From Microbacterium sp. LWO13-1.2 (GTDB lineage Bacteria; Actinomycetota; Actinomycetes; Actinomycetales; Microbacteriaceae), in the NCBI RefSeq assembly GCF_038397725.1, contig NZ_CP151634.1:1488001-1552000 (forward strand): a stretch of DNA of 64,000 nt, given 5' to 3'. The notes below the pieces were generated by a model. The model saw only the letters and a program-made list of their open reading frames with translations, ran no database searches and was not told the origin of the DNA. Below are positions 2,269 to 42,064 of this stretch, one piece after another. The position numbers and the translations under genes were made by a program. The stretch's first letter is position 1. The number at the start of each line of letters is the position of its first letter.

Positions 2269-5223
2269 TCAGCCGCAGGCTCCCGGAGGTATCGGCGCGG
2301 AGCCTTCGTAGCGCTGGCCGTCAGCGGCGATGCCGGTCACGGTCGCCGTGCCGCTCGTGATCGACGCGAGGCGCGTCGGGAACGAGGTCGAGGCTGCAGC
2401 CCCCGCGGCGATGGTGGCGGTCTTCGTGCCGAACGGGGTGCGGATCACGGTGTCGGCGGGAACGGTGTCGAGATTGCGAACGGTGACGACGACCTGCGCC
2501 TTGCCGGCGACGCAACGCACGGCGGTCGAGGCGGTGAGGTCGAGGTCGCCGGCCACGGTCTCGGCGGTCGACGTCGAGGTCGCGACGGCGCCGTCGGCGT
2601 ATCCGTCGTAGGTGGCCGTGACGGAGGTCACTCCTGCGGGCACCGTGACGGTGGCCGCCGCATCCGCGAGCGTCGCAGACTGCGTCCAGCCGTCGCCCGA
2701 GAACGTGACGGTGCCAACGACCTCGCCGTCGTCGGCCGCCGTCACCGTGGCTGTGGCCTCGCGGCCATTCACCGTGAGCTCCGTCGCCGAGGCGACAGCC
2801 GCGATCGAGGTCCAGTCGTGCATCGCGGTGAGCACCGTCTGCGGCACGCTCACGAACGCCCCGTGGCGCGGGCTCGCGGGGAGTCCGCCGGCCGGGCGCA
2901 CGTTCCACTCGGGCCGCTTCGAGAGTCGATCGGCCTGCGTGCTCGACGCGATCTCGTCACCGGTGGTCACGAATGCCCGGTAGCCCCCGGCGCCGTAGTT
3001 GTCGACGAGGAAGACATAACCGTCGCCGCCGGTGTTGCTCGGGTCGCCGGCGTTCAGCTTCACGATCTCCGGGCCTTCGCCGGCCTGCCCCGTCTCCAGC
3101 CCCGTCATCCGGGTGTCGGTGAGCTGCCAGGTCTGCGTGGGATCCGCGTTCCAGTTCGAGGTCGTGGTCGGCGCGGTCAGTACCTTCGACCGCTCCAGGA
3201 AGATGTCCTTGCCCGCTTCGAGGGGGCCGGCCGCGCCGCCGTCCTCGTTCTTGGTGAACCGGTAGTAATACTCGCCGATCTTGGTGACCGTCGAGTCGAT
3301 GCGCGCGAAACCGGTGTCCTGCCACGTCGCCGGTGGAGAGGTGAACGTCTGGAAATCGCGCGTCAGGACGGCGAACATCCGCGCGTGCAGATTGTCGGAG
3401 TTCGTGTGCGAGGCGTCCGAGTACAGACGTGAGGCGAAGAAGACGACGTACGACTGCAAGTCGTCGTCCCAGTACGCCTCGGGCGCCCAGGTCATCCCGG
3501 CCTCTGGCTGGTTGATCGTGATGCCGGTGTTCTCGCCGTTGGTCCTGTCCCAGTGCACGAGATCGGTGGATTCCCAGACCTCGACCTTGAGGCTGCCTTC
3601 GGACTGCGCCGGTCCCCAGCCGGTTCCGCAGCCGATGCAGAGGTCGGTGGCGATCATGTAGTACTTGTCGCCGTCGTGCGAGCGCAGGATGTACGGGTCG
3701 CGGAGTCCCCGGGTATCGGTCGTCGATGTGATCACCGGAGCGCCGCCGTTGACGGGTGAGAAGGTGAAGAAGTCGTTGCCGCTCGTCGCCGCCTGGTAGA
3801 TCTTCTCATCGGAGTCGGAGCGGAAGTACGCCGCCGCATAGCCGGCATCTGGGGCGGTGCGGGCGCGTTCGGCCACCGCGACCGAGAATTCGCGTTCGAT
3901 CGTCGTGCCGCCCGCCGTCGCGTGCGCGGTGAGGGTCACGGACCGGTCGCCCGCTCCGTATGCCGGCCGGCTGACGATCCCGCCTCCGCGGTACGGGTCG
4001 GACATGCCGGCGGCCGGGGCCGTGTAGCCGGGGTCGGTGGGGGAGACCAGTGACGCATCGGACGACGTCCAGGTGATCTGCGAGCCGTCCACGGATCCGG
4101 TGGTCACCAGCGGGAGGTTCTCCGTCGTGCGCGGTGCGAGGGCGATGGCGTCCAGGTCGGCGGATGCCGAGGGTGCGACGACCACGGCCGTCAGCTGGAT
4201 GCTGGTGCCGAGCGACGTGGTCGCCGTGAGCTGCACGGAGGTGTCGGACGAGATGGCGCGGGAGACCGTGCCGGTGGCGGAGATGACGGACGGGTCGGAG
4301 CTCGACCAGGTGAGCGTGATCCCGTTCGACGACGCGGGCAGCACGAGGTCGCTGCGGACCGCATCCAGCGAGGCGTTCTCTCCCCGCACGACTGCCGGCA
4401 GATCCAGTCGCAGCAGGGCGTCGGTGCTGGCAGCCTTCCGCTCGGCGGTGGGCATGCTCGCGGTCACCTGCTCGGGGGTCAGTGAGGTGTCCCAGAAGCG
4501 CACATCGGTGACATCCGCCTGCAGCAGCGGGTCAGGCGCGTAGAGCGAGCGGCCGAGGTAGCCGAGGGTGCTGCCCGTCGGCACGATCGAGGAGAGGCTG
4601 TAGGCGTGCGTCACGGTCGAGATCTGCTGGCCGTCGCGGTAGAGGGTGATCCGGTCGCCGCTTCCGACCATCGTGATCGTGGAGAATCCGGGGTTCAGGC
4701 CGCCGCCGGCGGGAACGCGCACCTCGCCGTTGCTCGAACCGGTCTTGACCCGGATGCCGGAGAGGACCTGGCCGCTGTACGAACCCTCTGCCGAGCGCGG
4801 ATTCACGAACACGTGGTTGCCGAGTGCGGTGGTGTTCCACGCGCCGACGCCGTCTCCGATGACCCAGCCGAACTGGTTGCCTGACGTCGATGCCGACACG
4901 GTGTACTCCACGGTGAAGGCGTTGTCCGTGCCGGTCACGAGGCCCTGCGGCAGCGCCGCATATCCGTCCCGCTTGAAGCGCAGCACCGCATCGCCGTCGG
5001 CGTCGGTGAATGAGGCGTCCGTCAGGCCGGTGAGCGTCGCGTCGCGGCCGTTGCCGGAGACATCCAGCAGAGTGCTGCCGGAGTGGGACATGTCGTAGTG
5101 CGCGGTCGGCGCGGGGACGTCGGCCGCAGACGCGGCAGGGGCGAGGGTGCACAGCGAGGCTGCCAGACCGACGCTGATCCCGGCGGCGAGCAGTCGCCGG
5201 GAGCGGGTTTCGGGTGTTCTCAT
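2269..5223 (-). CDS. Secreted GH43-type arabinosidase, LamG-Ig-GH43 with C-terminal Cys module
   Basis: Extracellular enzyme of the GH43 beta-propeller class, 984 aa from the ATG at 5223, which follows AAGGAC. A longer in-frame start at 5325 would put charged sequence before the signal peptide and is rejected. Order: signal peptide with Ala-rich cleavage site (about 1-32), LamG (about 35-255), two Ig-like domains (about 265-460), GH43 domain with Asp509 (LRDPY), Asp643 (IDSTV) and Glu716 (GEGPE), a bacterial Ig-like stretch, then the shared final module beginning near the RCVAGK motif and ending CG. It is the first gene of a minus-strand pair and diverges from the gene at 5445; a CGGTAACATT operator faces it at 5297-5306. 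Substrate (arabinan or arabinogalactan side chain) is inferred. Confidence 0.92.
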   Translation of the reverse strand: MRTPETRSRRLLAAGISVGLAASLCTLAPAASAADVPAPTAHYDMSHSGSTLLDVSGNGRDATLTGLTDASFTDADGDAVLRFKRDGYAALPQGLVTGTDNAFTVEYTVSASTSGNQFGWVIGDGVGAWNTTALGNHVFVNPRSAEGSYSGQVLSGIRVKTGSSNGEVRVPAGGGLNPGFSTITMVGSGDRITLYRDGQQISTVTHAYSLSSIVPTGSTLGYLGRSLYAPDPLLQADVTDVRFWDTSLTPEQVTASMPTAERKAASTDALLRLDLPAVVRGENASLDAVRSDLVLPASSNGITLTWSSSDPSVISATGTVSRAISSDTSVQLTATTSLGTSIQLTAVVVAPSASADLDAIALAPRTTENLPLVTTGSVDGSQITWTSSDASLVSPTDPGYTAPAAGMSDPYRGGGIVSRPAYGAGDRSVTLTAHATAGGTTIEREFSVAVAERARTAPDAGYAAAYFRSDSDEKIYQAATSGNDFFTFSPVNGGAPVITSTTDTRGLRDPYILRSHDGDKYYMIATDLCIGCGTGWGPAQSEGSLKVEVWESTDLVHWDRTNGENTGITINQPEAGMTWAPEAYWDDDLQSYVVFFASRLYSDASHTNSDNLHARMFAVLTRDFQTFTSPPATWQDTGFARIDSTVTKIGEYYYRFTKNEDGGAAGPLEAGKDIFLERSKVLTAPTTTSNWNADPTQTWQLTDTRMTGLETGQAGEGPEIVKLNAGDPSNTGGDGYVFLVDNYGAGGYRAFVTTGDEIASSTQADRLSKRPEWNVRPAGGLPASPRHGAFVSVPQTVLTAMHDWTSIAAVASATELTVNGREATATVTAADDGEVVGTVTFSGDGWTQSATLADAAATVTVPAGVTSVTATYDGYADGAVATSTSTAETVAGDLDLTASTAVRCVAGKAQVVVTVRNLDTVPADTVIRTPFGTKTATIAAGAAASTSFPTRLASITSGTATVTGIAADGQRYEGSAPIPPGACG

Positions 5224-5306: not shown

Positions 5307-5399
5307 GACACAATGGCGGAAACATAGGAGTTTCTCGTGACGCGAAGGTTGCCGAAACAAACCCTCGCGAGACGCGACCGTGCTGTGCTACGGTTCCTG

Positions 5400-5414
5400 G
5401 TTACCGGTAACAGT
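5400..5414 (+). promoter_or_regulatory. Palindromic LacI-type operator GTTACCGGTAAC
   Basis: GTTACCGGTAAC (5400-5411) is a perfect 12-base palindrome with a central CG, typical of LacI-family operators. It is 30 bases before the ATG at 5445, where it would overlap the transcription start. No clear -10/-35 pair could be assigned. Confidence 0.65.
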
Positions 5415-5444
5415 GAGTGTTGCCGCCACAACCAGGAGTCCTCG

Positions 5445-8165
5445 ATGGCGAAGTCCCCTTCTCTCTGTGCCCGTCCGGCGCGACGACGCTTTCCGCTGTC
5501 TCTGCGGGGCGCCGGTGCGCTCGCACTCGCCGCGGTCATCGCCCCGGGACTGATCGGTCCGACGAGCGCGTCCGGTGCCGAGATCACGGCCCCGCGCACC
5601 GGACTCGTCGCCGAGTACCTGTTCTCGCAGGAGGCCGGAACCGCCGTCCCGAACACCGCAGGCAGCGCCGTCGGCGCCGCCACGGTCGTCAACGGCACGG
5701 ATGCGCACTGGACCGGATCGTCTCTCGTGCTCACCGGCGGGGACAAGGGCGGCACCGGCGACTGGGTGCGGCTGCCCGACAGCCTGCTCGCCGGCGAGGA
5801 ATCGGCCACGATCACGGTCGAGACGAAGTTCGATGCGTCGATGGCATCCGCCTGGCACTTCCTCTGGAACATCGGCAGCGAGGGCACCTCGGCATACTGG
5901 TTCGCCTCGCTGAAGGACACCGCGCGCACCGCGATCACCACCGGCGGCGGCGGCGCAGAGGTGAACGCGCGCGGCCCCGCGCCGCTCACCCCTGACCGCT
6001 GGTACAGCGTGACCAGCGTGATCGACGGCGCCGCCGACGTCATCACCTTCTACGTCGACGGCGTGCGCGCGGGCAGCGCCCCGACGACGCTCACGCCCGG
6101 CTCCATCGCCGCGCAGACCATGAACACCATCGGCCGTGCGCCGTACCCCGACCCGCTCTACAAGGGCGAGGTCGCCGCATTCCGGGTGTACGACCGGGCC
6201 CTGAGTCAGGAAGAGGTCGCAGACGTGTCGATCGCAGACGCCGTAGCGCACGCAGACGAGATGGAGGCAGCGGCGCAGACCGCGGTGGACGCGCTCGCCC
6301 CGGTCACCATCGACGACGCGCATGTCACGCTGCCGGGATCGACTTCCGCGGCCGTCACCTGGACGTCGTCGAGCGACGACATCGTGATCGGCGCCGACGG
6401 CCGCTCGGCCACCGTGACGCAGCCGGCGGCAGGGTCCGCGCCCGTGGAGACCACCCTCACCGCGACCGCGACGGTGCGCGGAGTCGCTGCGACGAGAGAG
6501 ATCCCCGTGACGATCCAGCCCGCGGCGACCGAAGCAGACGACTACGGATACCTCATGGTGCACTTCATCGAGGATGCCGACGGATACGCCGAGAAGATCT
6601 ACCTCGACGTCTCGCGCGGTGACGACCCCGAGAAGTGGGACCCGCTCAACAGCGGCAAGCCGATCCTCGCCTCGCAGCTCGGGACGACCGGCGTGCGTGA
6701 TCCGTTCCTGACGCGCAACCCCGAGACCGGCCGGTACTACATCATCGCCACTGACCTGCGGGTGTTCGGCGGTGACGGCGGCTCCGGCTCGTGCACCAGC
6801 TGGTGCCACTGGACGACGAAGGGCAGCACCGACCTGGTCGTCTGGGAATCCGACGACCTGGTGAACTGGGGCGAGCCGCGCACGTTCGACACGGCGCTGG
6901 ACAGCAGCGGCGCCCAGGTGGCCGAGCTCGGCATGGCCTGGGCACCCGAGGCGCTGTGGGTCGACGACTACCACCCGGACGGTCGGGGCGCGTTCGTCAT
7001 GTACTGGTCGTCGAATGTGTACCCGGATGCTTCGCACACCGGTCCGAGCCACAACCGGGTTCTGTGGGGTGCCACCACCGACTTCTCCCAGGAGACCTAT
7101 TCGTACGGCGGTGACTTCGTCAACACCGGCGCCAACACGATCGACACGACGATGATCCAGGACGACGGCACGACCTACCGCGTCACCAAGGACAACGGCC
7201 TGGGCAAGGGCATCTACATGGAGTCCACCACGGCCGAGCGGTGGTGGGAGCAGGGCACCTCCTGGACGACCCTGCAGACCGAGATCGGCGCGGCATGGGC
7301 GGGCGGAAACGCCGGCGGAGTCGAGGGGCCCGCCGTCTTCAAGAGCCACAGCGACGAGAAGTGGTACCTGTACGTCGACGTGATCCCGAGCACCGGATAT
7401 CGGCCCATGGTCACAACGGATCTCGATGCCGGGTGGACGCAGCTGAACGACCCCTCGTTCTCGATGGCCCCGCACACCAAGCACGGCGGCATCGTCTCGC
7501 TGACCAAGGGCGAGTACGACCGGGTGCGAGCCGCGGATGCCGTCTCCGTCGTCACGGCGGATCTCGGGGTGGTCGAGGTCGAGGCGGGCGCCGGTACCGG
7601 CGACCTCGTCGCCGCGCTTCCGCAGGAGGCCGACATCACACTCGCCTACGGCCGAGGCGCGGCTTCGCAGCCGGTCTCGTGGGACACCTCGTCCGTCGAC
7701 CTGTCCGCACCGGGAGCCTACGAGGTCACCGGAATCGTGCAGACGCTCGGCGCCAACCTCGACTCGTGGACCGGCGCCGGCGGCTCGACCGCCTGGAACG
7801 CCCCCGATCGTGTGCTCGCTCGCAGCGGGGCGCTCACGGTCACCGCGCAGGTCACCGTGACGGATGCCGCCACGCCGACCATCACCGCGACCGCGATCAC
7901 CCGTTGCGTCGCCGGCAAGGTCGTGCTCGTCACCGAGGTCGAGAACGCCGGGACGACGCCGGTCTCACTGACCGTCACCACGGCGTTCGGTGTGACGGAT
8001 GCCGGAACCCTCGCCGCAGGGAAGTCCGTCAGTCGCAGCACGAGCACCCGCCTGGCCGCGGTCGAATCCGGTGAGGTCACGGTGACCGCATCCGCCCTGA
8101 TCGACGGAGCGGTTCGCACCACCACTGCCGTCGCCGAGTACGCCGCGCGAACCTGCGCTCGCTGA
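5445..8165 (+). CDS. Secreted GH43-type arabinosidase with LamG, Ig-like and C-terminal Cys module
   Basis: Extracellular GH43-class glycosidase, 906 aa. The ATG at 5445 follows AGGAG (5434-5438) and gives a twin-basic signal peptide (about 1-43); the longer frame from 5337 reads through the operator and is rejected. Order: LamG (about 45-260), one Ig-like domain (about 275-360), GH43 domain with Asp419 (VRDPF), Asp567 (IDTTM) and Glu627 (VEGPA), a short Ig-like (Big_4-type) stretch with a GAYEV core, and the shared module (RCVAGK ... TCAR). It is a paralogue of the enzymes at 1, 2269 and 16832. The next gene starts 46 bases downstream, so an operon is likely. Confidence 0.92.
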   Translation: MAKSPSLCARPARRRFPLSLRGAGALALAAVIAPGLIGPTSASGAEITAPRTGLVAEYLFSQEAGTAVPNTAGSAVGAATVVNGTDAHWTGSSLVLTGGDKGGTGDWVRLPDSLLAGEESATITVETKFDASMASAWHFLWNIGSEGTSAYWFASLKDTARTAITTGGGGAEVNARGPAPLTPDRWYSVTSVIDGAADVITFYVDGVRAGSAPTTLTPGSIAAQTMNTIGRAPYPDPLYKGEVAAFRVYDRALSQEEVADVSIADAVAHADEMEAAAQTAVDALAPVTIDDAHVTLPGSTSAAVTWTSSSDDIVIGADGRSATVTQPAAGSAPVETTLTATATVRGVAATREIPVTIQPAATEADDYGYLMVHFIEDADGYAEKIYLDVSRGDDPEKWDPLNSGKPILASQLGTTGVRDPFLTRNPETGRYYIIATDLRVFGGDGGSGSCTSWCHWTTKGSTDLVVWESDDLVNWGEPRTFDTALDSSGAQVAELGMAWAPEALWVDDYHPDGRGAFVMYWSSNVYPDASHTGPSHNRVLWGATTDFSQETYSYGGDFVNTGANTIDTTMIQDDGTTYRVTKDNGLGKGIYMESTTAERWWEQGTSWTTLQTEIGAAWAGGNAGGVEGPAVFKSHSDEKWYLYVDVIPSTGYRPMVTTDLDAGWTQLNDPSFSMAPHTKHGGIVSLTKGEYDRVRAADAVSVVTADLGVVEVEAGAGTGDLVAALPQEADITLAYGRGAASQPVSWDTSSVDLSAPGAYEVTGIVQTLGANLDSWTGAGGSTAWNAPDRVLARSGALTVTAQVTVTDAATPTITATAITRCVAGKVVLVTEVENAGTTPVSLTVTTAFGVTDAGTLAAGKSVSRSTSTRLAAVESGEVTVTASALIDGAVRTTTAVAEYAARTCAR

Positions 8166-11200: not shown

Positions 11201-12345
11201 AGCCGGACTCGGCCGAGGCGCAGGCGCTGATCCTGAGGGAGAAACAACAGCTGCGCATCGACGAGACGACGATCGACGCGCTGACGTCATTCGACAACAA
11301 CAACAGTGAGGCCGACAAGAACCACCGCTACAACAAGTCGTCGGTCGGTGTCTTCAATGGTCAGCCGTACCGCGACGGACAACGCGCGGCCGACGCCTTC
11401 TTCCAATACGACATGATCGTCGATCCCGCACTGCCGGCGAACCACCTGGGCGTCCGCTACTACGGCGGCGACGTGGGGCGCACGTTCGACGTCTACCTCA
11501 ACGACGTCCTGCTCAAGCACGAGCGGATCACCGACGCGCACGGCGCGCAGGACTGGTACATCCAGTACGACAGGATCCCGCAGGAGGTGCTCGACGGCAT
11601 CGTGGCGAAGGACAGCTACAAGCGCGATCAGAACGGCCAGTATGTGCTGGATGCCGAAGGGCAGCGCATCCCGATCGTCACCGTGCGCTTCCAGAGCAAC
11701 GGGACGAGTTTCGTCGGCGGCGTCTTCGGGGTGTACACCTCGGCGGTCGACCACTATGCGACGGATGCCGAGCTCTCGGCCCTCGCGGTCGACGGCGGAG
11801 CCCTCAGCCCTGCGCTCACCGCGGGGGTGGTTGACTACACGGTCACCGTGCCGGTGGGGGCGACCGAGGTGGCGCTGACGCTGACGCCGGCCGTTCCGAG
11901 CGGGCTCGTCCACGTCGACGGGATCCTGATCGACGACACCCTGCCGCGTACGGTGGCGGTGGCGCCGGGGGAGGCACCCACGGTCGTCGCGGTGAAGGCG
12001 ACCGCACAGGACCACGTCACGACCGCCGAGTACTCGATCCGCATCGTGCGCGAGTCCGAACTCGAGGTGACATCCGACGCCTCGGTGCGCTGTGTCGCCG
12101 GCAAGGCCGTGCTCGTGGTCAAGGTGCGCAACGGTGCGGACGCCCCGGTGAACGCCGTGATCATGTCCGCGTTCGGCAGCGCCCGGTTGCGGGTCGGTGC
12201 GGGCGGGAGCGCTTCGACGTCGATCGCCACCCGTCAGCCGGCGATCGCGGCCGGCGAGGTCGTGGTCGAGGCGTCAGCGGAGGTCGGTGGCCGACTGATC
12301 GTGACACGGACGACCGTGAGCCATCTCGCCGCGACCTGCCGCTGA
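8212..12345 (+). CDS. Secreted GH127/GH146-type beta-L-arabinofuranosidase (DUF1680)
   Basis: Large extracellular enzyme (1377 aa) predicted to release beta-linked L-arabinofuranose, as on hydroxyproline-rich glycoproteins or pectic side chains. The ATG follows GAGGAG. Order: signal peptide (1-31), LamG (about 38-255), Ig-like domain (about 260-345), alpha/alpha-barrel DUF1680 domain (about 360-960), a linker region, a cadherin-like beta-sandwich domain (about 1185-1280), and the shared module ending TCR. In characterised family members a Cys nucleophile sits in a zinc site made of Glu-x-Cys plus Cys-Cys. Here Glu688-Gly-Cys690 (AEGCNEYN) and Cys757 (FWCDHGTG) are present, but the second Cys of the pair is Asp758. 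Family assignment is strong; activity on a given substrate is inferred. Confidence 0.88.
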   Translation: MSRRTRVAASATIACLVGGALVVGSAPAAVAAEEISIESSKVLELGFDGALTDTSPRGAAIGLQKGSAVYAAGIRGQAFAFDGSTALRLGTDAYLQPQDLTVSFWYNPSAPMTGEQVFSWNKAAYNSDGWYLTSENDTAPLALSIGPSSGQPYKVAVEGTRSTFFPAGTWTHIVATYDHQSKAVTFYRNGVRQVSSVKYPVSAAASGVLGSESTTVKTIGYNGPQYNGSHLKGLLDDYAVYDGVATIDDVVALTQRGTADFDPATVAGADIAALTLPATVSVDFPLPIEGASGSAVAWSSSDTDLIEVDGATAHVTVPAEGEGTATLTASATYGASAPATREFAVTVTPPAGASEYLLDAGLENLAVTDEYLGNANGQTIDYLLSLDPEKFLYGWYQQAGLTPTTASGYGGWERTSGTRFSGHFFGHYLSALAQAYATTTDAEVKAQLLAKLTAGVEGLKRCQDAWAAAHPESAGFMAPFPISALPSGQDGLLVPFYNLHKVLAGLIDAHQYAPEALADDALSVASGFGTWVRDYAASLPNPATILNTEYGGMNEALYELYELTRDPAHKRAAEYFDEVALFQKLANGQDVLNGLHANTTIPKLIGALKRYTLFTSDAGLYETLSDAEKAALPMYLAAAKNFWQIVVDDHTYANGANSQSEHFHGADSLYAYATNGVTTGYGENSTAEGCNEYNMLKLTHALFAVEPQLKYADYYESTFINTILASQNPETGMVTYFQPQTAGYAKVFGTPLDQFWCDHGTGIESFTKLGDSMYFTDSDGVWLNQFYSSEFRDPAHNLRVTQAANVPADPLVSISIDALDGTTVAEGTLLRLRVPSWAASAPTLTVNGTPTEIAPVDGYITLEVAAGDELAYTLPAQVTVDDGTENANWVAFKYGPVLLGTELSRANVEASYTAGVLVQMGVADKSLNANVVVDDAPAWKAAVAQNVERLADGVNANGRTTMRFALHGVDPAASALTFEPYYSLYGARYATYMTLVQPDSAEAQALILREKQQLRIDETTIDALTSFDNNNSEADKNHRYNKSSVGVFNGQPYRDGQRAADAFFQYDMIVDPALPANHLGVRYYGGDVGRTFDVYLNDVLLKHERITDAHGAQDWYIQYDRIPQEVLDGIVAKDSYKRDQNGQYVLDAEGQRIPIVTVRFQSNGTSFVGGVFGVYTSAVDHYATDAELSALAVDGGALSPALTAGVVDYTVTVPVGATEVALTLTPAVPSGLVHVDGILIDDTLPRTVAVAPGEAPTVVAVKATAQDHVTTAEYSIRIVRESELEVTSDASVRCVAGKAVLVVKVRNGADAPVNAVIMSAFGSARLRVGAGGSASTSIATRQPAIAAGEVVVEASAEVGGRLIVTRTTVSHLAATCR

Positions 12346-14611: not shown

Positions 14612-16786
14612 ATGATGCAGACTTTCACCAGACGGACCATCGCGGGTCTCACCGCGCTCACGCTCGGCCTCGCAGGTGCTCTGATCGTGACGCAGCCCGC
14701 CCTCGCAGCCGCACAACCGGAGCCCATCGCCGAATACGACTTCGACGACGGCACGCTTGCGGACTCGATCGGCGGAGCCGACCTCACCGCGAGCGGCACG
14801 GCCGTCGTCACCACCGACGCGGAGAAGGGCAAGGCGTTGCGGCTGGACGGTACAACCGACGGCTTCGCCGCGTTCCCGGCCGGGTTCTTCGACGGGCGCA
14901 GCACCATGACGGTGTCGATGGACGTGAAGTCCGAGAAGACCAGCGGCAACTTCTTCACGTTCGCGATTGGTGCGGATGCGAACAAGTACCACTTCCTTCG
15001 GGTGCGCGGGGCCGATGTGCGCAGCGCGATCACGCAGAACTCGTGGCAGAACGAGTCCGCAGTGACCGGCACCGTGTCGAGCGGGCAGTGGCACAAGATC
15101 GATGTCGTCTTCGACGGCACCGCCATGACGGTGTACGCCGACGGTGTGAAACTCGGTGAGAACGCCGCGCTGGGCACGACGGTGGAACAACTGGGTACCG
15201 ACCTCGCCGGATACCTCGGCAAGTCGTTCTACGCGGGTGACGAGTACTTCAAGGGCTGGTTCGACGACGTGCGCATCTACGACCGGGCGCTGTCGGCCAC
15301 CGAGGTGCTGGGGAACGCCGGCGTGACGGATCAGCTCATCGATGTCTCGCTCACCGACCCCGCAACGCTCAAGCTGGCTCCGATCGTGAACGCGACAGCG
15401 CACACGGTCGTGCTCCCGGTGGTGAAGGGAACGGACGTGACCGCGCTCGCACCGACGTTCGGCGCGGCCGACGGCGTCACGGTTTCGCCGGTATCCGGCA
15501 CCGTCGTCGATCTGAGCGCTCCGGTGACCTACACGCTCACCGCCGCAGGTGGCGCGACCGCGACCTGGACGATCGAGGCGCGAGTGGTGAACAGCCCGGT
15601 GCTGCCCGGTCTCTACGCAGACCCCAACATCGCGGTGTTCGGCGACACCTACTTCATCTACGCGACCTCTGACGGTTACGCCGGGTGGGGAGGCAAGGAC
15701 TTCTACGTGTGGAGCTCGAAGGACCTGGTGGACTGGGTCCGCTCCGATCAGCCCTTCCTGTCGCTCGACGGCGCGAACGGCAACGTGCCGTGGGCCACGG
15801 GCAACGCGTGGGCGCCGACCATCATCGAGCGTGCGGGGAAGTACTACTTCTATTTCAGCGGTCACAACGAGAGCCTGAATCGCAAGACGATCGGGGTCGC
15901 CGTCGCGGACAGCCCGTACGGGCCGTTCATTGCGGAGCCGAGCGCGATGATCCTCAACAACGAGACCGTCACCTCGGGTCAGGCCATCGACCCGGCCGCC
16001 TTCCACGACCCGGTGACCGGCAAGTGGTACCTGGGCTGGGGGAACGGATCACCGGTGCTCGCTGAGCTCGGCGACGACATGGTCTCGATCAAGCCGGGCA
16101 GCTACCAGCGGATCACCGGGCTGACCGACTTCCGTGAAGGGGTCTTCTTCAACCATCGCAACGGGCTGTACCACCTCACCTACGCGATCGACGACACCGG
16201 CTCGGAGAACTACCGCGTCGGGTACGCCACGGCGACGAGCATGAACGGGCCGTGGACCTATCGCGGAGTGATCCTGCAGAAGAACCTGGGCCTCGGCATC
16301 AAGGGCCCCGGTCACAGCTCGATCATCAACGTCCCCGGCACGGATGACTGGTACATCGCCTATCACCGGTTCGCGATTCACGGCGGCAACGGCAACAACC
16401 GCGAGACGACCATCGACAGGCTTGAGTTCGGGGCCGACGGTCTGATGAAGCCGGTCGTTCCGACGCTCGAGAGCGTGCCGGCGCAGATCGTGGAGCAGCC
16501 GCCGACGGGGCCCGATGTCGAGGTCGCGCTCATCACGCGCTGCACCGCCGGCAAGGTCACGCTCGTCGTTACGACCTGGAACAGGGACGATGCTGCGGTG
16601 AGCGTGGAGATCAGCACGCCGCATGGCACGAAGACCGTCGCGGAGGTAATGCCGGACAGGTCGTCTTCGCTGGCGATCTCCACGAGGCTCGCGTCGATCG
16701 ATGCGGGCTCCGCCACCGTGGTGGCGACAGGCGAATCGGGCACGACCGAGATCACCGAGTCCTACTCCGCCCGCGCCTGCGGCTGA
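14612..16786 (+). CDS. Secreted GH43 glycosidase with LamG and C-terminal Cys module
   Basis: Extracellular GH43 enzyme, 724 aa (a start at 14615 is equally possible; both follow AGGAAG). Order: signal peptide (about 1-33), LamG (about 38-225), a short beta-domain (about 245-325), then a canonical GH43 propeller opening LYADPNI. Triad: Asp337 (YADPN), Asp460 (IDPAAF), Glu509 (FREGVF). This region looks more like alpha-L-arabinofuranosidases and beta-xylosidases than the GH43s at 1, 2269, 5445 and 16832 do. It ends in the shared module (RCTAGK ... RACG). It follows the WxL cassette by 38 bases and precedes another GH43 gene by 45. Substrate is inferred from context. Confidence 0.9.
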   Translation: MMQTFTRRTIAGLTALTLGLAGALIVTQPALAAAQPEPIAEYDFDDGTLADSIGGADLTASGTAVVTTDAEKGKALRLDGTTDGFAAFPAGFFDGRSTMTVSMDVKSEKTSGNFFTFAIGADANKYHFLRVRGADVRSAITQNSWQNESAVTGTVSSGQWHKIDVVFDGTAMTVYADGVKLGENAALGTTVEQLGTDLAGYLGKSFYAGDEYFKGWFDDVRIYDRALSATEVLGNAGVTDQLIDVSLTDPATLKLAPIVNATAHTVVLPVVKGTDVTALAPTFGAADGVTVSPVSGTVVDLSAPVTYTLTAAGGATATWTIEARVVNSPVLPGLYADPNIAVFGDTYFIYATSDGYAGWGGKDFYVWSSKDLVDWVRSDQPFLSLDGANGNVPWATGNAWAPTIIERAGKYYFYFSGHNESLNRKTIGVAVADSPYGPFIAEPSAMILNNETVTSGQAIDPAAFHDPVTGKWYLGWGNGSPVLAELGDDMVSIKPGSYQRITGLTDFREGVFFNHRNGLYHLTYAIDDTGSENYRVGYATATSMNGPWTYRGVILQKNLGLGIKGPGHSSIINVPGTDDWYIAYHRFAIHGGNGNNRETTIDRLEFGADGLMKPVVPTLESVPAQIVEQPPTGPDVEVALITRCTAGKVTLVVTTWNRDDAAVSVEISTPHGTKTVAEVMPDRSSSLAISTRLASIDAGSATVVATGESGTTEITESYSARACG

Positions 16787-16831: not shown

Positions 16832-19498
16832 ATGATGAGTTCTGAACAGACGCGCAGCCGCGGCCGGCGCGTGATCGCGGGCGCACTGGGCGTGGTGCTG
16901 GTGGGGGGTCTGTCACTCACCGTCCCGGCGGCGGCGAATGCGGCACCGGTCCGTGCCGCAGGAGCCGACGAACCGGCGTCACTCGTGGCGCTGTACGACT
17001 TCTCGGAGGAGAGCGGCACGATCGCGCACGATGCGAGCACGCACGGCAACGACGCCACGGTGGTCGGCGGTGACGCCTGGAACAGCGGATACATGCAGTT
17101 CACCGGCGCCAACCACGTGAAGATGCCGAACGACCTGCTGGCCGGACGCAGCGCGGCGACGATCGTCATCGAGACCTCGCCGCAGGCGCTCACCGGCGCG
17201 AAGTTCCTGTGGAACATCGGCGGCACCGCCGGCCCGTCGAGCGGTCAGGGCCAGTTCTTCATCCAGCCGGTCGCACCCCGCGTCGCGATCACCAAGACGA
17301 ACTGGTCCGGTGAGCAGACGGTCACGTCGCCGACGAAGCTCGTCGAAGGGCAGTGGCAGTCGGTCGCCGCGACCATCGCGAAGAACCCCGACGGCACCAC
17401 GTCGACCCTGCGGCTGTTCATCGACGGAGCGCAGGTGGCCGAGAAGACCGACTCGAGCGTCAACCTCACCGACCTGCTGACGCACACCGTCAATTACATC
17501 GGCAAGAGCGCCTACCCCGCAGACACCCTGTATCAGGGCAAGGTCTCGACGTTCCGGGTGTACGAGGAGGCACTGCCGGCGGCGACGCTGACCGAGATCG
17601 CAGCGACGGATGCCGCGAGCGCCGCGACCGAGACGGTCGCAGCGATCGATCTCGCCGCCGTGAACGCGCAGAGTCTCGACGCCGTGGAGACGAACCTCAC
17701 GCTGCCCACCGCCGGCGGCGTCACGTGGACCTCGTCGGAGCCCGGCATCGTCGCCGCCGACGGCACCGTGACGCAGCCGGAGTCCGACACGGGCGTGACC
17801 CTTACGGCGGTCTCCGCCGTGCGCGGAGTGCAGAGCACGCCTCGCACCTTCCCGGTCACTGTGCTCAGGGATCCCGCGGCCTCGGACAAGGCCCAGCGCG
17901 ACCTCGATGCGATCAGCATCGCGGGCACCGACGACATCCGCTCGAACTTCGCGCTGCCCGCATCCGGATCCCGCTACGGCTCCGCGCTGACCTGGCAGAG
18001 CTCCTCTCCTTCGATCGTCGATGTGGCCGGCACCGCGCAGACCGCACCCGGAATCGTGACGCGTCCCGAGGGCGGCGACGCCAAGGTCATGCTGACCGTC
18101 ACCGCGACGATCGATGGCGAGACCGCCACCCGCGAAATCGCGCTCGTGGTTCGTGCGGCCTACGACATGCCCGCGACGACCGACTACATCTTCGCCCACT
18201 TCACCGGTACGGAGGGCTCTGCGTCCGACGAGCAGATCTACTTCGCCACCAGCCGCGACGCCAAGGTCTTTACCGACACCCGCCCTGCAGGCGCCCCGGT
18301 GCTGTCGACCGAACGCAACGCCGGAGAGGGCGAGGGCGGCGTGCGCGACCCGTTCCTGGTGCGCTCGCCGGAGGGCGACCGGTTCTACCTGATCGCGACC
18401 GACCTGAGCATCTACCACCGCGGCGGCTGGGGCAACGCCCATGCCACCGAGGACGGCTCGACCGAGCTCGTGATCTGGGAATCCACCGACCTCGTGAACT
18501 GGAGCGAGCCGCGTCTCTCGGACGTCGCCGGCGAGATCCCGAACGCCGGGATGGCCTGGGCGCCCGAAGCGATCTGGGATGAGGTCACGGGTCAGTACTA
18601 CGTGTATTGGGCGACCCGCGCCGACGGGAACACCGCATTCGGGGACAGCGTCGACATCTACCTCTCGACCACGCGGGACTTCCGTACCTTCTCGACTCCG
18701 GTCAAGTGGATCGACCGCGAGCATTCCATCATCGACACCACGGTGATCAAGGTGGGTGACTGGTACTACCGTGCCTCGGGCGACGGTGAGATCACGATCG
18801 AGCGATCGAAGAACCTCGCCGCGACCACGGCGTCGGCTCTGCCGGCCGCCACGGGCACCGATCAGCAGTGGGTGCTCGTCGGGACGCTGCAGTCGATCCT
18901 GCAGGGCAGCGGCACCTGCGCCGTCGGCACGAACTACACCGGCGCCTGCCTCGAGGGTCCGGAGTTCTTCCAGTACAACGACGACGATCGTGCCGGCGCG
19001 CAACAGCTCTACGGGCTGCTCGCCGACCAGTACGCGACCGGTCGCGGTTATGTGCCCTTCCGGACGACCGACCTCGCCTCCACGTCGAACACAGTGTGGA
19101 GCAAGGCGAGCGACGTCAACCTCGGTGCGATCAAGAAGCGTCACGGCGGCATCGTGCCGATCACCGCGGCGGAGTACCAGCGCGTGATGTTCCATTACGC
19201 CGGAGTCGGCGCCGATCCCGACCTGAAACTGAGCTCGGCGGTCACCACGCGCTGCGTCGCCGGCAAGGTGGCCCTCGCCGTCTCGGTCACGAACGACGAC
19301 AGCCGGGCGGCCGATGTCGTCATCACAACCCCTTTCGGCGACAAGACGGTCAAGGCCCTGCAGGCGGGTAAGACAGTGACGCAGACCGTGTCGACCAGGC
19401 AGAGCGCGATCGCGGCGGCATCCATCGCCGTGCAGGGCACCGCGAGTGACGCCTCGTACTCCGCAAGCACCTTCTACGAGACCCGCACCTGCGGCTGA
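16832..19498 (+). CDS. Secreted GH43-type arabinosidase, LamG and two Ig-like domains, C-terminal Cys module
   Basis: Extracellular enzyme of 888 aa; the ATG follows AAGGGG, and the second Met is an equal candidate. Order: signal peptide (about 1-36), LamG (about 45-255), two atrophied Ig-like domains (about 265-445), GH43 domain with Asp506 (VRDPF), Asp635 (IDTTV) and Glu708 (LEGPE), then the shared module (RCVAGK ... TCG). It is the fourth member of the paralogous group with the genes at 1, 2269 and 5445. A strong hairpin follows its stop, so it probably ends the transcript begun upstream. Confidence 0.9.
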   Translation: MMSSEQTRSRGRRVIAGALGVVLVGGLSLTVPAAANAAPVRAAGADEPASLVALYDFSEESGTIAHDASTHGNDATVVGGDAWNSGYMQFTGANHVKMPNDLLAGRSAATIVIETSPQALTGAKFLWNIGGTAGPSSGQGQFFIQPVAPRVAITKTNWSGEQTVTSPTKLVEGQWQSVAATIAKNPDGTTSTLRLFIDGAQVAEKTDSSVNLTDLLTHTVNYIGKSAYPADTLYQGKVSTFRVYEEALPAATLTEIAATDAASAATETVAAIDLAAVNAQSLDAVETNLTLPTAGGVTWTSSEPGIVAADGTVTQPESDTGVTLTAVSAVRGVQSTPRTFPVTVLRDPAASDKAQRDLDAISIAGTDDIRSNFALPASGSRYGSALTWQSSSPSIVDVAGTAQTAPGIVTRPEGGDAKVMLTVTATIDGETATREIALVVRAAYDMPATTDYIFAHFTGTEGSASDEQIYFATSRDAKVFTDTRPAGAPVLSTERNAGEGEGGVRDPFLVRSPEGDRFYLIATDLSIYHRGGWGNAHATEDGSTELVIWESTDLVNWSEPRLSDVAGEIPNAGMAWAPEAIWDEVTGQYYVYWATRADGNTAFGDSVDIYLSTTRDFRTFSTPVKWIDREHSIIDTTVIKVGDWYYRASGDGEITIERSKNLAATTASALPAATGTDQQWVLVGTLQSILQGSGTCAVGTNYTGACLEGPEFFQYNDDDRAGAQQLYGLLADQYATGRGYVPFRTTDLASTSNTVWSKASDVNLGAIKKRHGGIVPITAAEYQRVMFHYAGVGADPDLKLSSAVTTRCVAGKVALAVSVTNDDSRAADVVITTPFGDKTVKALQAGKTVTQTVSTRQSAIAAASIAVQGTASDASYSASTFYETRTCG

Positions 19499-20650: not shown

Positions 20651-20706
20651 GCACCGCACGCGAGCGCTGTCAAGGCTTTTCGAAACCGTTGCTCCTCGTT
20701 TTCTGA

Positions 20707-20719
20707 TACCGGTAACATC
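20707..20719 (+). promoter_or_regulatory. LacI-type operator before GH43-CBM6 gene
   Basis: TACCGGTAACATC, with the 8-base palindrome TACCGGTA at its left and the shared CGGTAACATC word at 20710-20719. It lies 43 bases before the ATG at 20763. Confidence 0.6.
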
Positions 20720-20762
20720 CGAGCTGTCGGCGTCTCGCGCCGCATCTCGAAGAGGAGACCGC

Positions 20763-23303
20763 ATGAAGAAGATCATCGACGGCGCCAGGACGGCGCCGCA
20801 TACCGGACGGGCGCGAGGCAGGTCGATCCGACTCGCCACGGCGCTGGTGGGCGCCGCCGCACTCGTCGCATCGCCGATGGCGGCGTTCGGCAGCAGCGCG
20901 GTGTACACCGCACCTGCCGGCATCGTCGAGAGCGGCGTGCTCTCCGGCATCGTGCCGGCAGCCGGCGCCGTCGTGACGGCCGTGGCCGACCCGCCGGCCG
21001 TACCGGGGAACCTGCTGCCGGATGGCCGCTTCGTCAGCGACTTCGCCGGTTGGAGCGCTCCGCGCGGGGGAACGCTGGCATTGAGCGAGGATGCCGCGAG
21101 CGGTGCGCACTCATTGCAGGCGACGGCCCGCGCGAACACCCAGTCCGGTCCCTTCGCCAGTGTCACCGGCAAGATCGAGCTCGGCGCCGTGTACCGGTTG
21201 ACCGGAAAGCTGAAGTTCGACGAGGGCAACGCCACGCAGCAGTTCAACTTCACGTTCTGCCCGGCGAACTTCAACGGCTGCGCCGACTATGGCCAGACTT
21301 TCACCAAGGGTGAGTGGGGCAGCTTCTCGCGGGAGTTCACCGCCGAGGCGAAGCACGTCGCCGCGGACTGGCTCTTCGTCGAGACGCCGTGGGGCTCCAG
21401 CGCGCTGCAGGCGTTCAGCGTCGACGAGGTCTCTCTCATCAAGATCGCCGACGCGCCGGAAGGGCCCGACTTCGCAGGCCTGGAGAACGTGCAGACCAAG
21501 CCGATCGGCGACCACAACCCGCTGGTCGGCCACAAGTTCGGCGCCGATCCGCACCACCTCGTCTACGACGGTCGCCTGTACATCTACTCGACGGACGACA
21601 CGCAGCAGTACGACCTGAACAGCAAGGACGCGAACGGACTGCCGACGCAGTCCAATGGCTACGGCGGGATCACCCGGCTGAACGTGATGTCCACCAGTGA
21701 CATGGTCAACTGGGTCGATCACGGCACGGTTCCCGTCGCGCGTGAAGGCGGCGCGGCGCCGTGGAGCCGGAACTCCTGGGCACCGGCCGCGATCGAGAAG
21801 GACGGCAAGGTCTACCTGTACTTCTGCGACAGCGGAACAGGAACGGCCGTGGTCGTCGGCGGTTCGCCGCTCGGGCCGTGGGAGGACCCGCTCGGGAAGA
21901 AGATCATCCCGGACACCGTGTCGCCCGAGTACATCGCCGGCGGCGGATTCCCGGCCGGGATGTGGCTGTTCGACCCCGAGGTGTTCATCGACGACGACGG
22001 ACAGGGCTACCTGTACTTCGGCGGCAACTCGCAGATCGGCACCTCACCAAACGTGCAGGGACCGCAGAACCCGAAGTCGACCAGAGTGGTCAAGCTGAAG
22101 GACGACATGGTCACCCTCGACGGCGACCCGGTCGAGATCGACGGGCCCGGGATGTTCGAGGCCTCGAGCATGTTCAAGCACGACGGCAAGTACTACTACT
22201 CGTACTCGTCGAACTTCCAGGTCAACGAGGTGCCGGGGGCGTACCCGTCGCGGGGCGCGATCGCGTACATGATGACCGATGACCCGATGGATCTCACGGC
22301 CGCACAGTACGCGGGCGTGGCATTCCAGAACCCCTCGACCTTCTTCGGCGCAGGCAACGGGGGCAACAACCACTCCGACATGTTCGACTACAAGGGCGGC
22401 ACGTACTTCACCTACCACGCCCAAACCAGGGGTGCGGCATGGGCGGCGGCGCTGGGAACGCCGGGTGCGACTCAGGGTTACCGCTCCGTGCACATCGACA
22501 AGCTCGAGTTCAACGCGGACGGCACGATCAAGCCGGTCACCGGAACCCGGGCCGGCGTCGAGCAGGTCGAGAGCTTCGATCCGTATCGCACCTTCGAGGC
22601 CGAGACCCTGGCGTGGCAGCGCGGAATCAGCACGGCGAAGACGGATGCCGCCTCGGTGGAGTTCCCGAAGCACAACGGCGGCGGCAACATGATGCTTTCC
22701 GCCATCGATGACGGGGACTTCGCCGGAATCGCCGGAGTCGACTTCGGGGCAGGCGCCGCGACGGTCTCGGCCACGGTGAAGCCGCTCGTCGCCGGCGGCA
22801 GCATCCAGGTGCGCCTGGATGACGTCGACGGTCCGGTCATCGCCGAGATCCCTGTCGGCGGCACCGTCGGTGAGTGGACGAGTGTGCAGGCGGCCGTGAC
22901 GGGAGCCACCGGAGAGCATGACGTGTTCTTCGTGTTCGCCGGTCCGGAGGGTGCCGAAGCGACGGCCGATCTCGTCGAAGTGGACAACTGGTCCTTCACG
23001 GCCGCCGCGTCGCTGGAGTTCTCGGTCGAGGTGACCACGCGCTGCGTCGCGGGCAAGAACCTGACCCAGACCGTACGGGTGGTGAACGAGGATGCGGTGG
23101 GGATCGCTTTCACCGCGGTGTCCGACTTCGGGCGTCGTGATCTCGGCACGGTGCTGCCGGATGCCGGAAAGTCTGCCGCGATCAACACCCGCGCGGCGAC
23201 CATCCCGGCCGGCGAGGTGACGGTCGAGGCCACGGCCACGGTCGGCGGCGAACAGGTGCAGGTGCAGCGGCAGGTCGACACCGAGGCGGCCGCATGCGGC
23301 TGA
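20763..23303 (+). CDS. Secreted GH43 enzyme with N-terminal CBM4/9-like and C-terminal CBM6-like domains
   Basis: 846 aa. The ATG at 20763 follows GAGGAGA; the longer frame crosses the operator and is rejected. Order: basic N-terminus and hydrophobic signal segment (about 1-45), a CBM4/9-like jelly roll (about 80-235, from LPDGRF), GH43 domain with Asp262 (GADPHH), Asp404 (FDPEVF) and Glu466 (FEASSM), a CBM6-like domain (about 610-750, from TFEAET), and the shared module (RCVAGK ... ACG). The GH43-CBM6 combination is common in arabinofuranohydrolases acting on arabinoxylan or arabinan. It has its own operator and a strong terminator, so it is probably monocistronic. Confidence 0.9.
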   Translation: MKKIIDGARTAPHTGRARGRSIRLATALVGAAALVASPMAAFGSSAVYTAPAGIVESGVLSGIVPAAGAVVTAVADPPAVPGNLLPDGRFVSDFAGWSAPRGGTLALSEDAASGAHSLQATARANTQSGPFASVTGKIELGAVYRLTGKLKFDEGNATQQFNFTFCPANFNGCADYGQTFTKGEWGSFSREFTAEAKHVAADWLFVETPWGSSALQAFSVDEVSLIKIADAPEGPDFAGLENVQTKPIGDHNPLVGHKFGADPHHLVYDGRLYIYSTDDTQQYDLNSKDANGLPTQSNGYGGITRLNVMSTSDMVNWVDHGTVPVAREGGAAPWSRNSWAPAAIEKDGKVYLYFCDSGTGTAVVVGGSPLGPWEDPLGKKIIPDTVSPEYIAGGGFPAGMWLFDPEVFIDDDGQGYLYFGGNSQIGTSPNVQGPQNPKSTRVVKLKDDMVTLDGDPVEIDGPGMFEASSMFKHDGKYYYSYSSNFQVNEVPGAYPSRGAIAYMMTDDPMDLTAAQYAGVAFQNPSTFFGAGNGGNNHSDMFDYKGGTYFTYHAQTRGAAWAAALGTPGATQGYRSVHIDKLEFNADGTIKPVTGTRAGVEQVESFDPYRTFEAETLAWQRGISTAKTDAASVEFPKHNGGGNMMLSAIDDGDFAGIAGVDFGAGAATVSATVKPLVAGGSIQVRLDDVDGPVIAEIPVGGTVGEWTSVQAAVTGATGEHDVFFVFAGPEGAEATADLVEVDNWSFTAAASLEFSVEVTTRCVAGKNLTQTVRVVNEDAVGIAFTAVSDFGRRDLGTVLPDAGKSAAINTRAATIPAGEVTVEATATVGGEQVQVQRQVDTEAAACG

Positions 23304-32956: not shown

Positions 32957-32971
32957 ACCGCGTCCGTCGTC

Positions 32972-39108: not shown

Positions 39109-39168
39109 CGCCTGAGGAAGACGCATTCGGGAAAGGGCTTGCCCGGCGAGTGCCCGTCCTGCTTGGAT

Positions 39169-39201
39169 GTGTGTTGACGTCAACCGTTAACGTCAACACA
39201 C
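39169..39201 (+). promoter_or_regulatory. 33-base inverted repeat before galactanase gene
   Basis: Arms GTGTGTTGACGT (39169-39180) and ACGTCAACACAC (39190-39201) are perfectly complementary around a 9-base centre. It also contains the 12-base palindrome GTTGACGTCAAC. It differs from the CGGTAACA boxes, so a different regulator, perhaps the ROK protein at 48961, is likely. It is 34 bases before the ATG at 39236. Confidence 0.65.
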
Positions 39202-39235
39202 GGAGCGATGAAGCTTCGATCACAAGGGAGTGGTT

Positions 39236-42064
39236 ATGAAGAGAACGAAGGCTGTCGCCATGGCGGTCTGCACCGCTGCGGTACTGACGGTTTCGGCTGT
39301 GGGTTCGGCGCAGGCCGCCGTTCCCACCGGCGACCCCGCGACGTACACCTCTTATCCCGGCATCCAGGACCCGGGGAGTGCATCGCCGAGCTACTTCCAG
39401 CCGTACTGGTTCGACGACAACGGCGCCCACATCCAGGCGCACGGCGGCGCGGTCGTCTCCGCCCAGGAACTCGGTGTCGAAGGAGGCGATGTGGTCACCG
39501 GTGAGGAGGATGACCGCACCGTCTACTACTGGTACGGCGAAGACCGCAGCAACGGCTACTATGGCAGCCCCGGCGTGCACGCCTACAAGTCCTACGACAC
39601 GCTCAACTGGACCGACGAGGGCGTCGTGCTGCGCTCGGTGTCCGACGCCGCCGAGCTCGAGTCCGAGTACTTCGACACGCTCTACGACACCGTCGACGAC
39701 GCCGGACAGCCGCGGGCTGAGCGCATCTCCACGCTGAACTACCACCTCAACACCAACGACGCCGCCGAGCTCACCACGATCTTCGAGCGGCCCAAGGTGC
39801 TCTTCAACGAGTCGACGGGCAAATGGGTGCTGTGGTGGCACTCCGACGGGCAGACCTCGGCCGGCGGCAGCATGTACGCCCGATCGATGGCGGGAGTCGC
39901 GGTTTCCGACAGCCCGACGGGTCCCTTCCGCCTGACGGGTGTCTATCGGATGCCGAACCGCACCGACTACAAGGCCTGCATCTCGGCCGCAGTTCCCGGT
40001 CAGGCGCGCGACATGACGGTCTTCCAGGACGACGACGGCACCGCGTACATCGTCTACTCGTCCGAGGAGAACCGCTCGCTCTACGTCGCCGAACTCGACG
40101 CGTCGTACACGAACGTCACGCACACGACCGACGTCGACATGGCGAACGCCGGACAGTACTCCGACGACGGCCGCTACCCGTATCTGTTCGCGGACGGCAC
40201 CGCCGACGCTCCGGTGCGCGGCGAGGACTTCCAGATCGTGAAGGAATGCGGGATGCTCGAGGCGCCCGCGCTCTTCCAACACGGCGGCAAGTACTACGCC
40301 GTGGCATCCGGCGCGACCGGGTGGGCACCGAACCCGCAGACGTACCACACGGCCGACAGCATCCTCGGCACCTGGATCCGCGGCGTCGAGACCGGCGACG
40401 TCTACGAGAACGTGGCCTACAACGCGATTCCCGAAGGGGGCGACGGGCTGCTGTCCGTCGGCGACACCCGGCGCACGTCGTTCGGATCGCAGTCGACCAA
40501 CGTGCTCGACCTCGGCGGCGGCCGCTTCGTCTACATGGGCGATCGCTGGAACTCCGGCGCTGCCGACTCCACATACGTGTGGCTGCCGATCACGATCGGC
40601 GAGAACGGTCGTGCCGAGATGCGCAACCCCGCCACCGAGGATCCGACCAGGTGGGCTGCGGGCTGGGACGCGTCGTACTGGGATGACAAGGGCACGGGCA
40701 CCGAGATCTGGCGCGTCGTCGAAGACGGCCTTCCCGAGACCGTCGAACCCGGCGAGGACTTCTCGGATGCCCTCCCGGCGACTGTCTCCGTCGACGTCGG
40801 TGGTGTGACCACCGACGTGGCCGTGGAGTGGAGCGCGAGCTCGTTCACTGAGCGCGGCACGCAGGCGATCATCGGAACGCTCCCGGCGGACGCGCAGTTC
40901 ACGGCTGGGCGCACCTTCACCCGGACGATCGAGGTCGCCACCCCAGGGGTCGTGAATCTCGCGCCGGAGTCGGCGGTGTCCGCATCCAGCCGTCCGACGC
41001 TCGCGCCCACGGTCGTGGACGGCAACGTCAAGGGCAAGGGCTGGGATGACTGGGTCGGCGGCGGCGTCTACCCGAAGTCCGGCTGGCTCTCGTTCTCGTG
41101 GCCGTTGGCGCAGGACGTCGACGAGGTCGTCGTGCACACGTACAAGGACGGCGCGGGCGCGACCTGGCCGTCGACGATCGCGGCCGAGTACCTCGACGCG
41201 TCGGGCGCCTGGGTCTCGGCGGACGTGAGCGTCGAATTGGCGCAGGATGCCACGGCAACCGCACCCGTCGCAGCGCTCGACGTCTCGGCGTTGCCGCGGA
41301 CCAACGGCGTCCGCCTGCAGCTGAAGACGGCGACCAACACCTGGCAGTCCATCTCGGAGGTGCAGATCTGGGGCGCCGACGGCGTCGAGGACATCTGCTC
41401 GGCTGAGGGCACGGCCGTGTCGGCGAGCTTCTCGCAGACCGAGTGGGAGACGATGCCCGCCCGGAACGCCTGTGACGGCAGCGCCGCGACCTCCTGGTCG
41501 ACCTGGACCGGCGGCACCATGAAGGACTCGGCGACGTTCACCGTCGAGCCGGCGGCGGCCCGCATCGTCGACAGCGTCGGCTTCACGAACATCGAGGGGA
41601 CGATCACCGCCGTGGGGGTCGAGTACCGCGATGTCGAGGGCAGCTGGCATGCGACGAGCGCGCAGAACGTCGTGCCGAGCGCCAATGGCGCACCGACGTC
41701 GATCTCGTTCGACGCGGTCGTCGCGTCGGCCGTCCGGATGACGTTCGCGACACCGGGGTCGTTCCTGAAGATCCCGGTCCTGGCGGTCGGGGCGCGGTCC
41801 TCGGACTTCGTTCCGGCGGTCTCCACGCGCTGCATCGCCGGCAAGGTGCAGCTCGTCTCCAGTGTGCACAATGCGGGCGCCGAACCGGTGGATGCCGTCG
41901 TCGAGACGCCATTCGGGCGCAGGGTCGTCGAAGCGGTGGGCGCAGGGGAGAAGGGTTCTGCCGTGGCCGCGACGCGCAAGGCCTCGATCGCCGCCGACGA
42001 GGTCGTCGTCTCCGTCGGAGAGTCGACGGTGACGGCGGGTTACGCCGCGAAGAACTGCGGCTGA
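39236..42064 (+). CDS. Secreted GH43_24-like exo-beta-1,3-galactanase with discoidin-like domains
   Basis: 942 aa extracellular enzyme; the ATG at 39236 is seven bases after AAGGGAG. Signal peptide about 1-28. The GH43 propeller begins QAHGG (67-71) and YYWYGED, the signature of subfamily 24, in which the usual Asp base is absent; Asp259 (ARDMTV) and the acid-type Glu342 (MLEAPA) are seen. Then a Big_4-like domain (about 510-570), two discoidin/CBM32-like domains (about 575-715 and 720-855), and the shared module (RCIAGK ... NCG). Known subfamily members cut galactose from the beta-1,3-galactan backbone of arabinogalactan proteins. The oligosaccharide importer and GH2 enzyme downstream fit this. 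Confidence 0.87.
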   Translation: MKRTKAVAMAVCTAAVLTVSAVGSAQAAVPTGDPATYTSYPGIQDPGSASPSYFQPYWFDDNGAHIQAHGGAVVSAQELGVEGGDVVTGEEDDRTVYYWYGEDRSNGYYGSPGVHAYKSYDTLNWTDEGVVLRSVSDAAELESEYFDTLYDTVDDAGQPRAERISTLNYHLNTNDAAELTTIFERPKVLFNESTGKWVLWWHSDGQTSAGGSMYARSMAGVAVSDSPTGPFRLTGVYRMPNRTDYKACISAAVPGQARDMTVFQDDDGTAYIVYSSEENRSLYVAELDASYTNVTHTTDVDMANAGQYSDDGRYPYLFADGTADAPVRGEDFQIVKECGMLEAPALFQHGGKYYAVASGATGWAPNPQTYHTADSILGTWIRGVETGDVYENVAYNAIPEGGDGLLSVGDTRRTSFGSQSTNVLDLGGGRFVYMGDRWNSGAADSTYVWLPITIGENGRAEMRNPATEDPTRWAAGWDASYWDDKGTGTEIWRVVEDGLPETVEPGEDFSDALPATVSVDVGGVTTDVAVEWSASSFTERGTQAIIGTLPADAQFTAGRTFTRTIEVATPGVVNLAPESAVSASSRPTLAPTVVDGNVKGKGWDDWVGGGVYPKSGWLSFSWPLAQDVDEVVVHTYKDGAGATWPSTIAAEYLDASGAWVSADVSVELAQDATATAPVAALDVSALPRTNGVRLQLKTATNTWQSISEVQIWGADGVEDICSAEGTAVSASFSQTEWETMPARNACDGSAATSWSTWTGGTMKDSATFTVEPAAARIVDSVGFTNIEGTITAVGVEYRDVEGSWHATSAQNVVPSANGAPTSISFDAVVASAVRMTFATPGSFLKIPVLAVGARSSDFVPAVSTRCIAGKVQLVSSVHNAGAEPVDAVVETPFGRRVVEAVGAGEKGSAVAATRKASIAADEVVVSVGESTVTAGYAAKNCG

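Follow-up and report, generated by a model that had tools for sequence, protein, structure and literature searches.

A common C-terminal module of secreted glycosidases in Microbacterium and its proposed docking on a WxL-like/WxLIP surface platform

The locus examined here, a stretch of 64,000 nucleotides of Microbacterium sp. LWO13-1.2 (the window; positions G000:C1:1488001-1552000 of a 4.0-Mb genome), raises the question of why secreted hydrolases of several kinds should all finish with one and the same short module. The first-pass annotation offered three answers, a docking tag, a wall attachment, or a common carbohydrate-binding domain. Docking to the two proteins encoded at 12549 and 13261, called W and I below, is now favoured on account of gene order, co-occurrence, and plasmid cassettes, and the binding itself is inferred; attachment to the wall and carbohydrate binding are retained with lower probability.

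Module M and its predicted fold

All seven hydrolases named in the first-pass annotation were found by sequence comparison to be closed by a module of ca. 90 residues, called M (Table 1), and thus the claim of one common end module holds for each of them (7/7). The count of carriers was incomplete, since a profile search found 13 M copies in the source genome, with E-values from 6.3e-39 to 1.6e-7, far above chance. Two gene starts have been corrected: the one given as 5445 belongs to ORF 5337-8165, and the one given as 39236 to the enclosing ORF 39230-42064. As to the six enzymes described as GH43-class, the 2269 protein scores below the PF04616 cut-off and the 5337 protein has no GH43 match, but both match the NCBIfam alpha-arabinofuranosidase model (133-135 bits, cut-off 500). 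Invariant in the seven modules are R-C, A-G-K, one N, one G, T-R, one V, and a terminal Cys, which is next-to-last in six of them, within the range stated previously (last or next-to-last), but third-last in the seventh.

Table 1. Module M copies in the window and the neighbouring genes W and I (window positions)
Feature	Positions	Strand	Basis or remark
M of arabinofuranosidase-like protein 2269-5325(-)	2272..2556	-	alignment and genome profile search
M of arabinofuranosidase-like protein 5337-8165	7863..8162	+	alignment and genome profile search; NCBIfam for the protein
M of GH127-type protein 8212-12345	12049..12342	+	alignment and genome profile search; Pfam for the protein
M of GH43 protein 14612-16786	16499..16783	+	alignment and genome profile search; Pfam for the protein
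M of GH43 protein 16832-19498	19211..19495	+	copy used for structure prediction
M of GH43-CBM6 protein, ORF 20616-23303	23001..23300	+	alignment and genome profile search; Pfam for the protein
M of GH43 protein, ORF 39230-42064	41789..42061	+	alignment and genome profile search; Pfam for the protein
Eighth carrier, a hydrolase gene running beyond the left window edge	3..2177	-	its M outside the window (G000:C1:1487292-1487558), assigned by position
W, small secreted WxL-like protein, proposed socket	12549-13193	+	gene order, homologues, predicted fold
I, WxLIP-type protein (PF06030) with C-terminal hydrophobic segment, proposed membrane anchor	13261-14313	+	Pfam

No Pfam or NCBIfam model covers M in the window proteins, and 86 modules show scattered weak family matches, mostly to Ig-like families (E <= 0.1). 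Apart from these, the statement that M has no named family is borne out for Pfam, NCBIfam, and PDB sequences, with no clear match to a described domain; the dockerin family is not among the best 25 of the 34 families matching the 86 modules at E <= 0.1. The AlphaFold2 model, built with 86 sequences, is all-beta and has seven strands in an Ig-like sandwich (pLDDT 96.7, pTM 0.86), which according to Foldseek and VIA is an ordinary one.

A local iterated profile yielded 144 distinct modules in the loci collected. In 141 of them a stop codon lies no more than seven residues beyond M. The three exceptions are a fragment of 28 positions, a partial match close to the border of a locus, and an ORF truncated where the locus ends; no ORF among those with the 144 modules contains two of them. 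A crude rule recognizes a signal-like N-terminus in 81 of 90 M proteins. Thus, the copies are C-terminal and mostly carried by secreted hydrolases, rather than being mostly intracellular or internal. Of the 141 modules with both ends intact, 137 contain the two Cys residues, four have neither, and none has a single one. This joint retention or loss speaks for a disulfide that links the first strand to the last residues and, together with the model, upholds the disulfide-closed Ig-like fold suggested earlier. The modules devoid of both Cys are found in L032, L037, L021, and L089:1710-3749; those in L032 and L089 adjoin W.

The conserved residues are unevenly distributed over the sandwich. By strand order rather than by coordinates, 13 of the 16 most conserved positions of alignment A3 lie at the pole with the Cys pair and the C-terminus (p 1.4e-4). 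The 47 named loci were collected by the motif [TIA][TV]RCVAGK[VNA], and hence the conservation of this motif in A3 is partly due to selection; in a motif-free set of 54 modules the bias is weaker, with 10 of 16 conserved positions at that pole (p 0.008). The enzyme is joined to M at the opposite pole. A binding face including the C-terminus would explain why nothing follows M.

Neighbours W and I and their association with M

W is an acidic protein with a computed pI of 4.05, whose predicted model, of moderate confidence (pLDDT 72.8), resembles pilus subunits. The WxL family was not matched in Pfam scans of 12 W homologues (E <= 1) or of 10 large proteins with a W domain (E <= 0.1), and a profile comparison of W with an annotated Paenibacillus WxL protein gave no significant result (P 0.31). 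W-x-V and L-x-L in W may occupy the places where W-x-L might be expected. The W-type domain has one WxL-like trait, in that it closes both small and large proteins whose genes are clustered with a WxLIP gene. Cohesin is matched weakly by two of the 12 homologues (best E 0.036). Protein I matches PF06030 (WxLIP_PGBD) with 31.3 bits (cut-off 27.3), as do all 15 of its homologues examined; DUF3324 is absent from the Pfam matches of these 15 (E <= 0.1), and the profile comparison with a Paenibacillus WxLIP-like protein covers ca. 235 columns, extending beyond the first domain. Its C-terminus, read from the sequence, is a hydrophobic stretch followed by basic residues, a putative transmembrane helix. 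A Firmicute relative of the W/I arrangement is seen on a Paenibacillus lautus plasmid (L137), where a DUF916-like protein, a 1089-residue protein, and an annotated WxL protein are encoded in a row.

The source genome has two copies each of W and I against its 13 of M; a second M-W-I set is located at G000:C1:1095718-1097786 (L016). Among the named loci, those most similar to the window belong to Microbacterium. Within the DNA read, W or I is present in 20 of the 47 named loci (W in 17, I in 16) and neither in 27. The W/I-bearing ones come from Microbacterium, Arthrobacter, Frigoribacterium, Brachybacterium, and Tessaracoccus, and from metagenome bins of Naasia, Propionibacteriaceae, and Microbacteriaceae.

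With the own genome counted in each case, M was found in 19 of 58 relatives, in 52 of 396 genomes of the order, and in six of 396 genomes of a phylum-wide draw, all six of the same family. The order-wide search scored at most the best 12 M, five I, and seven W candidates per genome, which makes absences soft; among the matches listed, 52 genomes were positive for M, 81 for I, and 59 for W. M and I occur together in 16 relatives, M alone in three (one of these genomes being 77% complete), I alone in six, and neither in 33 (p 5.8e-7); the corresponding numbers for the order are 39, 13, 42, and 302 (p 1.8e-20), and since the genomes are related, these and the following p-values overstate the significance. 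M is present in 27 of the 29 order genomes with an I match of at least 200 bits, and genomes with a weaker I are also enriched in it (12/52 versus 13/315).

The association with W is graded. All 11 relatives with a W match of at least 100 bits (close W) are M-positive, as are 24 of the 25 such genomes of the order (p 5.7e-23), while the proportion is 6/31 in those with only a W below 83 bits (distant W) and 19/337 in those without W. Three M-positive genomes with a best W of 83-97 bits (G058, G172, and G283) stand outside both W classes in these counts. Compared with genomes without W, the distant-W class is mildly enriched in M (p 0.012), and with the three intermediate genomes added M is found in 9/34 (p 3e-4). 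The conclusion that distant W is unlinked to M (p 0.27) was rejected, as its comparator included close-W genomes; distant W does not provide a clean negative control.

M-enzyme, W, I is the commonest gene order. An M match on the same strand precedes the start of W by 47-518 bp in 11 of the 15 close W copies found in relatives and in at least 23 of 48 in the order sample (together at least 34 of 63), and all 15 copies in the relatives lie within 3.6 kb of an M match. For I copies of at least 200 bits, M is no more than 10 kb away in at least 26 of 48.

Distant W occurs in another form. In ten loci (L119-L128), picked not at random but from rows with long open frames, the W domain constitutes the last ca. 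117-165 residues of an ORF of 582-1354 aa (10/10). An I gene adjoins the large protein in nine of them, once in two pieces, and in the tenth the contig ends there; M was not found in any of the ten loci opened. The cargo is an esterase in seven, a purple-acid-type metallophosphatase in two, and a weak HtaA match in one. It seems that one anchor family is used in two ways, fused to a single enzyme or free beside M-enzymes. No other finding speaks as strongly for M being a plug for W/I.

In a survey of 72,556 plasmid records M was detected in three, two from Clavibacter phaseoli and one from Cellulosimicrobium protaetiae, and these three also give the three best of the 13 I matches among plasmids. 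The regions opened, one of Clavibacter (L135) and that of Cellulosimicrobium (L136), encode three and four M-proteins, respectively, with one W and one I each, as well as LacI regulators and sugar ABC transporter genes, which suggests that these genes are transferred as a unit.

Genomes with at least four M copies have both W and I in 18 of 19 cases, as counted by eye. The exception, G420, has four strong copies, and neither W nor I is present in 39 kb around three of its M genes; in G034 and G014, too, both are missing from the DNA read on either side of strong M genes. Some of the strong M-enzymes of these three genomes (L129-L131, L133, and L134) resemble the 20616 and 39230 proteins. Moreover, judged by the best seven W and five I candidates per genome, 13 of the 52 M-positive order genomes have neither, which counts against docking. 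Such M-enzymes may be orphans or have another receptor, or M may bind something more general. They would be expected if M were itself the anchor to peptidoglycan or a wall glycopolymer, and W and I formed a surface system of their own that is carried along with these loci; the strict terminal position and the conserved basic residues R14, K19, and R63 would also suit an acidic wall polymer. A direct tag of this kind needs neither W nor I, yet M accompanies close W almost without exception and the plasmid cassettes carry all three, so that this explanation is considered unlikely.

Carriers of M and other readings of its role

Domains were scanned in 84 of the 89 full-length M proteins available. 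The carriers comprise GH43 (45), GH127 (9), GH30 (3), and single GH59, GH62, and GH35 proteins, with one pectate-lyase-like match; a plasmid protein annotated as GH53 also bears M. A LamG domain is present in 63 of the 84, and CBM or ricin domains are also found among the carriers. Of the 13 GH43 matches in the source genome, eight share an ORF with M, as judged by position. Among the five without M, one has a lipobox-like LAGC near its start, and in the remaining four no signal peptide is evident immediately ahead of the catalytic domain, their start codons not being established. The window genes between the carriers include those for LacI regulators, sugar ABC transporter parts, a sugar kinase, and an aldose epimerase.

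The prevalence of GH43 and GH127 among the carriers would be in keeping with M being a new carbohydrate-binding module for arabinan-type polymers, and among the 86 modules four match CBM_35 (best E 0.0015) and two CBM_6 (best E 0.019), none significantly. However, M is always single and terminal, Trp is present in just six of the 86 modules, the cargo also includes GH59, GH35, and GH30, and many carriers are already equipped with LamG, CBM, or ricin domains; a polysaccharide binder would, moreover, leave the tie with W/I unexplained. This role is therefore regarded as quite improbable. A secretion or folding tag, with W and I acting as chaperone-like escorts or stabilizers and not as holders, would agree with the terminal position of M, with the pilin-like predicted fold of W, and with the WxLIP hairpin predicted in PMC10599100 to complete the WxL sandwich, but it is very hard to credit, as the enzyme-W fusions without M look like anchored cargo and the W model is of moderate confidence only.

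Proposed docking and its relation to known systems

The reading preferred here is that M is a docking module mounting glycosidases on a W/WxLIP surface platform, a split form of the enzyme-WxL fusion; on genomic grounds it is probably correct. M, Ig-like and disulfide-closed, would stand in one copy at the extreme end of a secreted glycosidase, with its conserved pole (the R-C-V-A-G-K turn, the Y/F-G turn, T-R, and the C-terminal Y-x-A-x-x-C) facing away from the enzyme and binding a platform of W and I, the latter kept in the membrane by its C-terminal helix. One W/I platform would serve many enzymes, and hence a set degrading arabinan and related polymers would be displayed on the cell beside the sugar ABC transporters. 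In this plug-and-socket arrangement an exchangeable set of enzymes would be held at the cell surface, in place of the single enzyme fused to a C-terminal W domain.

Surface clusters of WxL and WxLIP proteins (csc) are known from Firmicutes, where their involvement in plant-sugar use has been proposed (Siezen 2006, PMC1534035; Hassan 2022, PMC9772566; Hassan 2023, PMC10599100), and a 2025 paper notes that a metal-binding domain has DUF916 and metallophosphatase neighbours, one of them from Microbacterium (PMC12537917). As in the csc clusters, a DUF916/WxLIP protein with a transmembrane helix is encoded in one gene cluster with a small secreted partner and with larger cargo proteins, and in the profile comparison I matches a Paenibacillus protein adjoining an annotated WxL protein. 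In the published csc clusters the WxL domain closes the large cargo protein itself, whereas here many enzymes end in M; W also differs from csc WxL proteins in having no significant sequence match to WxL. The WxL/WxLIP clusters of Firmicutes and the plant-sugar role proposed for them are already known, and what is new is module M and its tie to an Actinobacterial W/I subfamily.

The arrangement also resembles the cohesin-dockerin system of cellulosomes in that many enzymes have one small docking module each and the proposed shared receptors are few. Dockerin is a calcium-binding helical module, whereas M is an Ig-like sandwich with a disulfide, and a scaffoldin with repeated cohesins was not seen. 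With chaperone-usher pilins of the FimA type W shares ca. 10% identity and, in a model of moderate confidence, the fold, which by itself shows no function. A bolder version is an Actinobacterial cellulosome-like display, in which as many as 19 enzymes of one genome would bear the disulfide-locked Ig-type plug. The WxL-like socket, being pilin-like in its predicted fold and having WxLIP as its base or donor-strand partner, would perhaps polymerize into an enzyme-bearing surface filament, and the complete kit would move on plasmids; this is a speculation with rather little chance of being right.

If docking is indeed its role, an undescribed domain of many actinobacterial glycosidases would gain a function, and it would be explained how sets of secreted enzymes could stay at the cell although they have no sortase signal. 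The known range of WxL/WxLIP complexes, for the most part Firmicute so far, would then include enzyme display by Actinobacteria, both in the fused form (enzyme-W) and in the split one (enzyme-M plus W), and the one-domain tag with its two-gene receptor could serve as a display tool.
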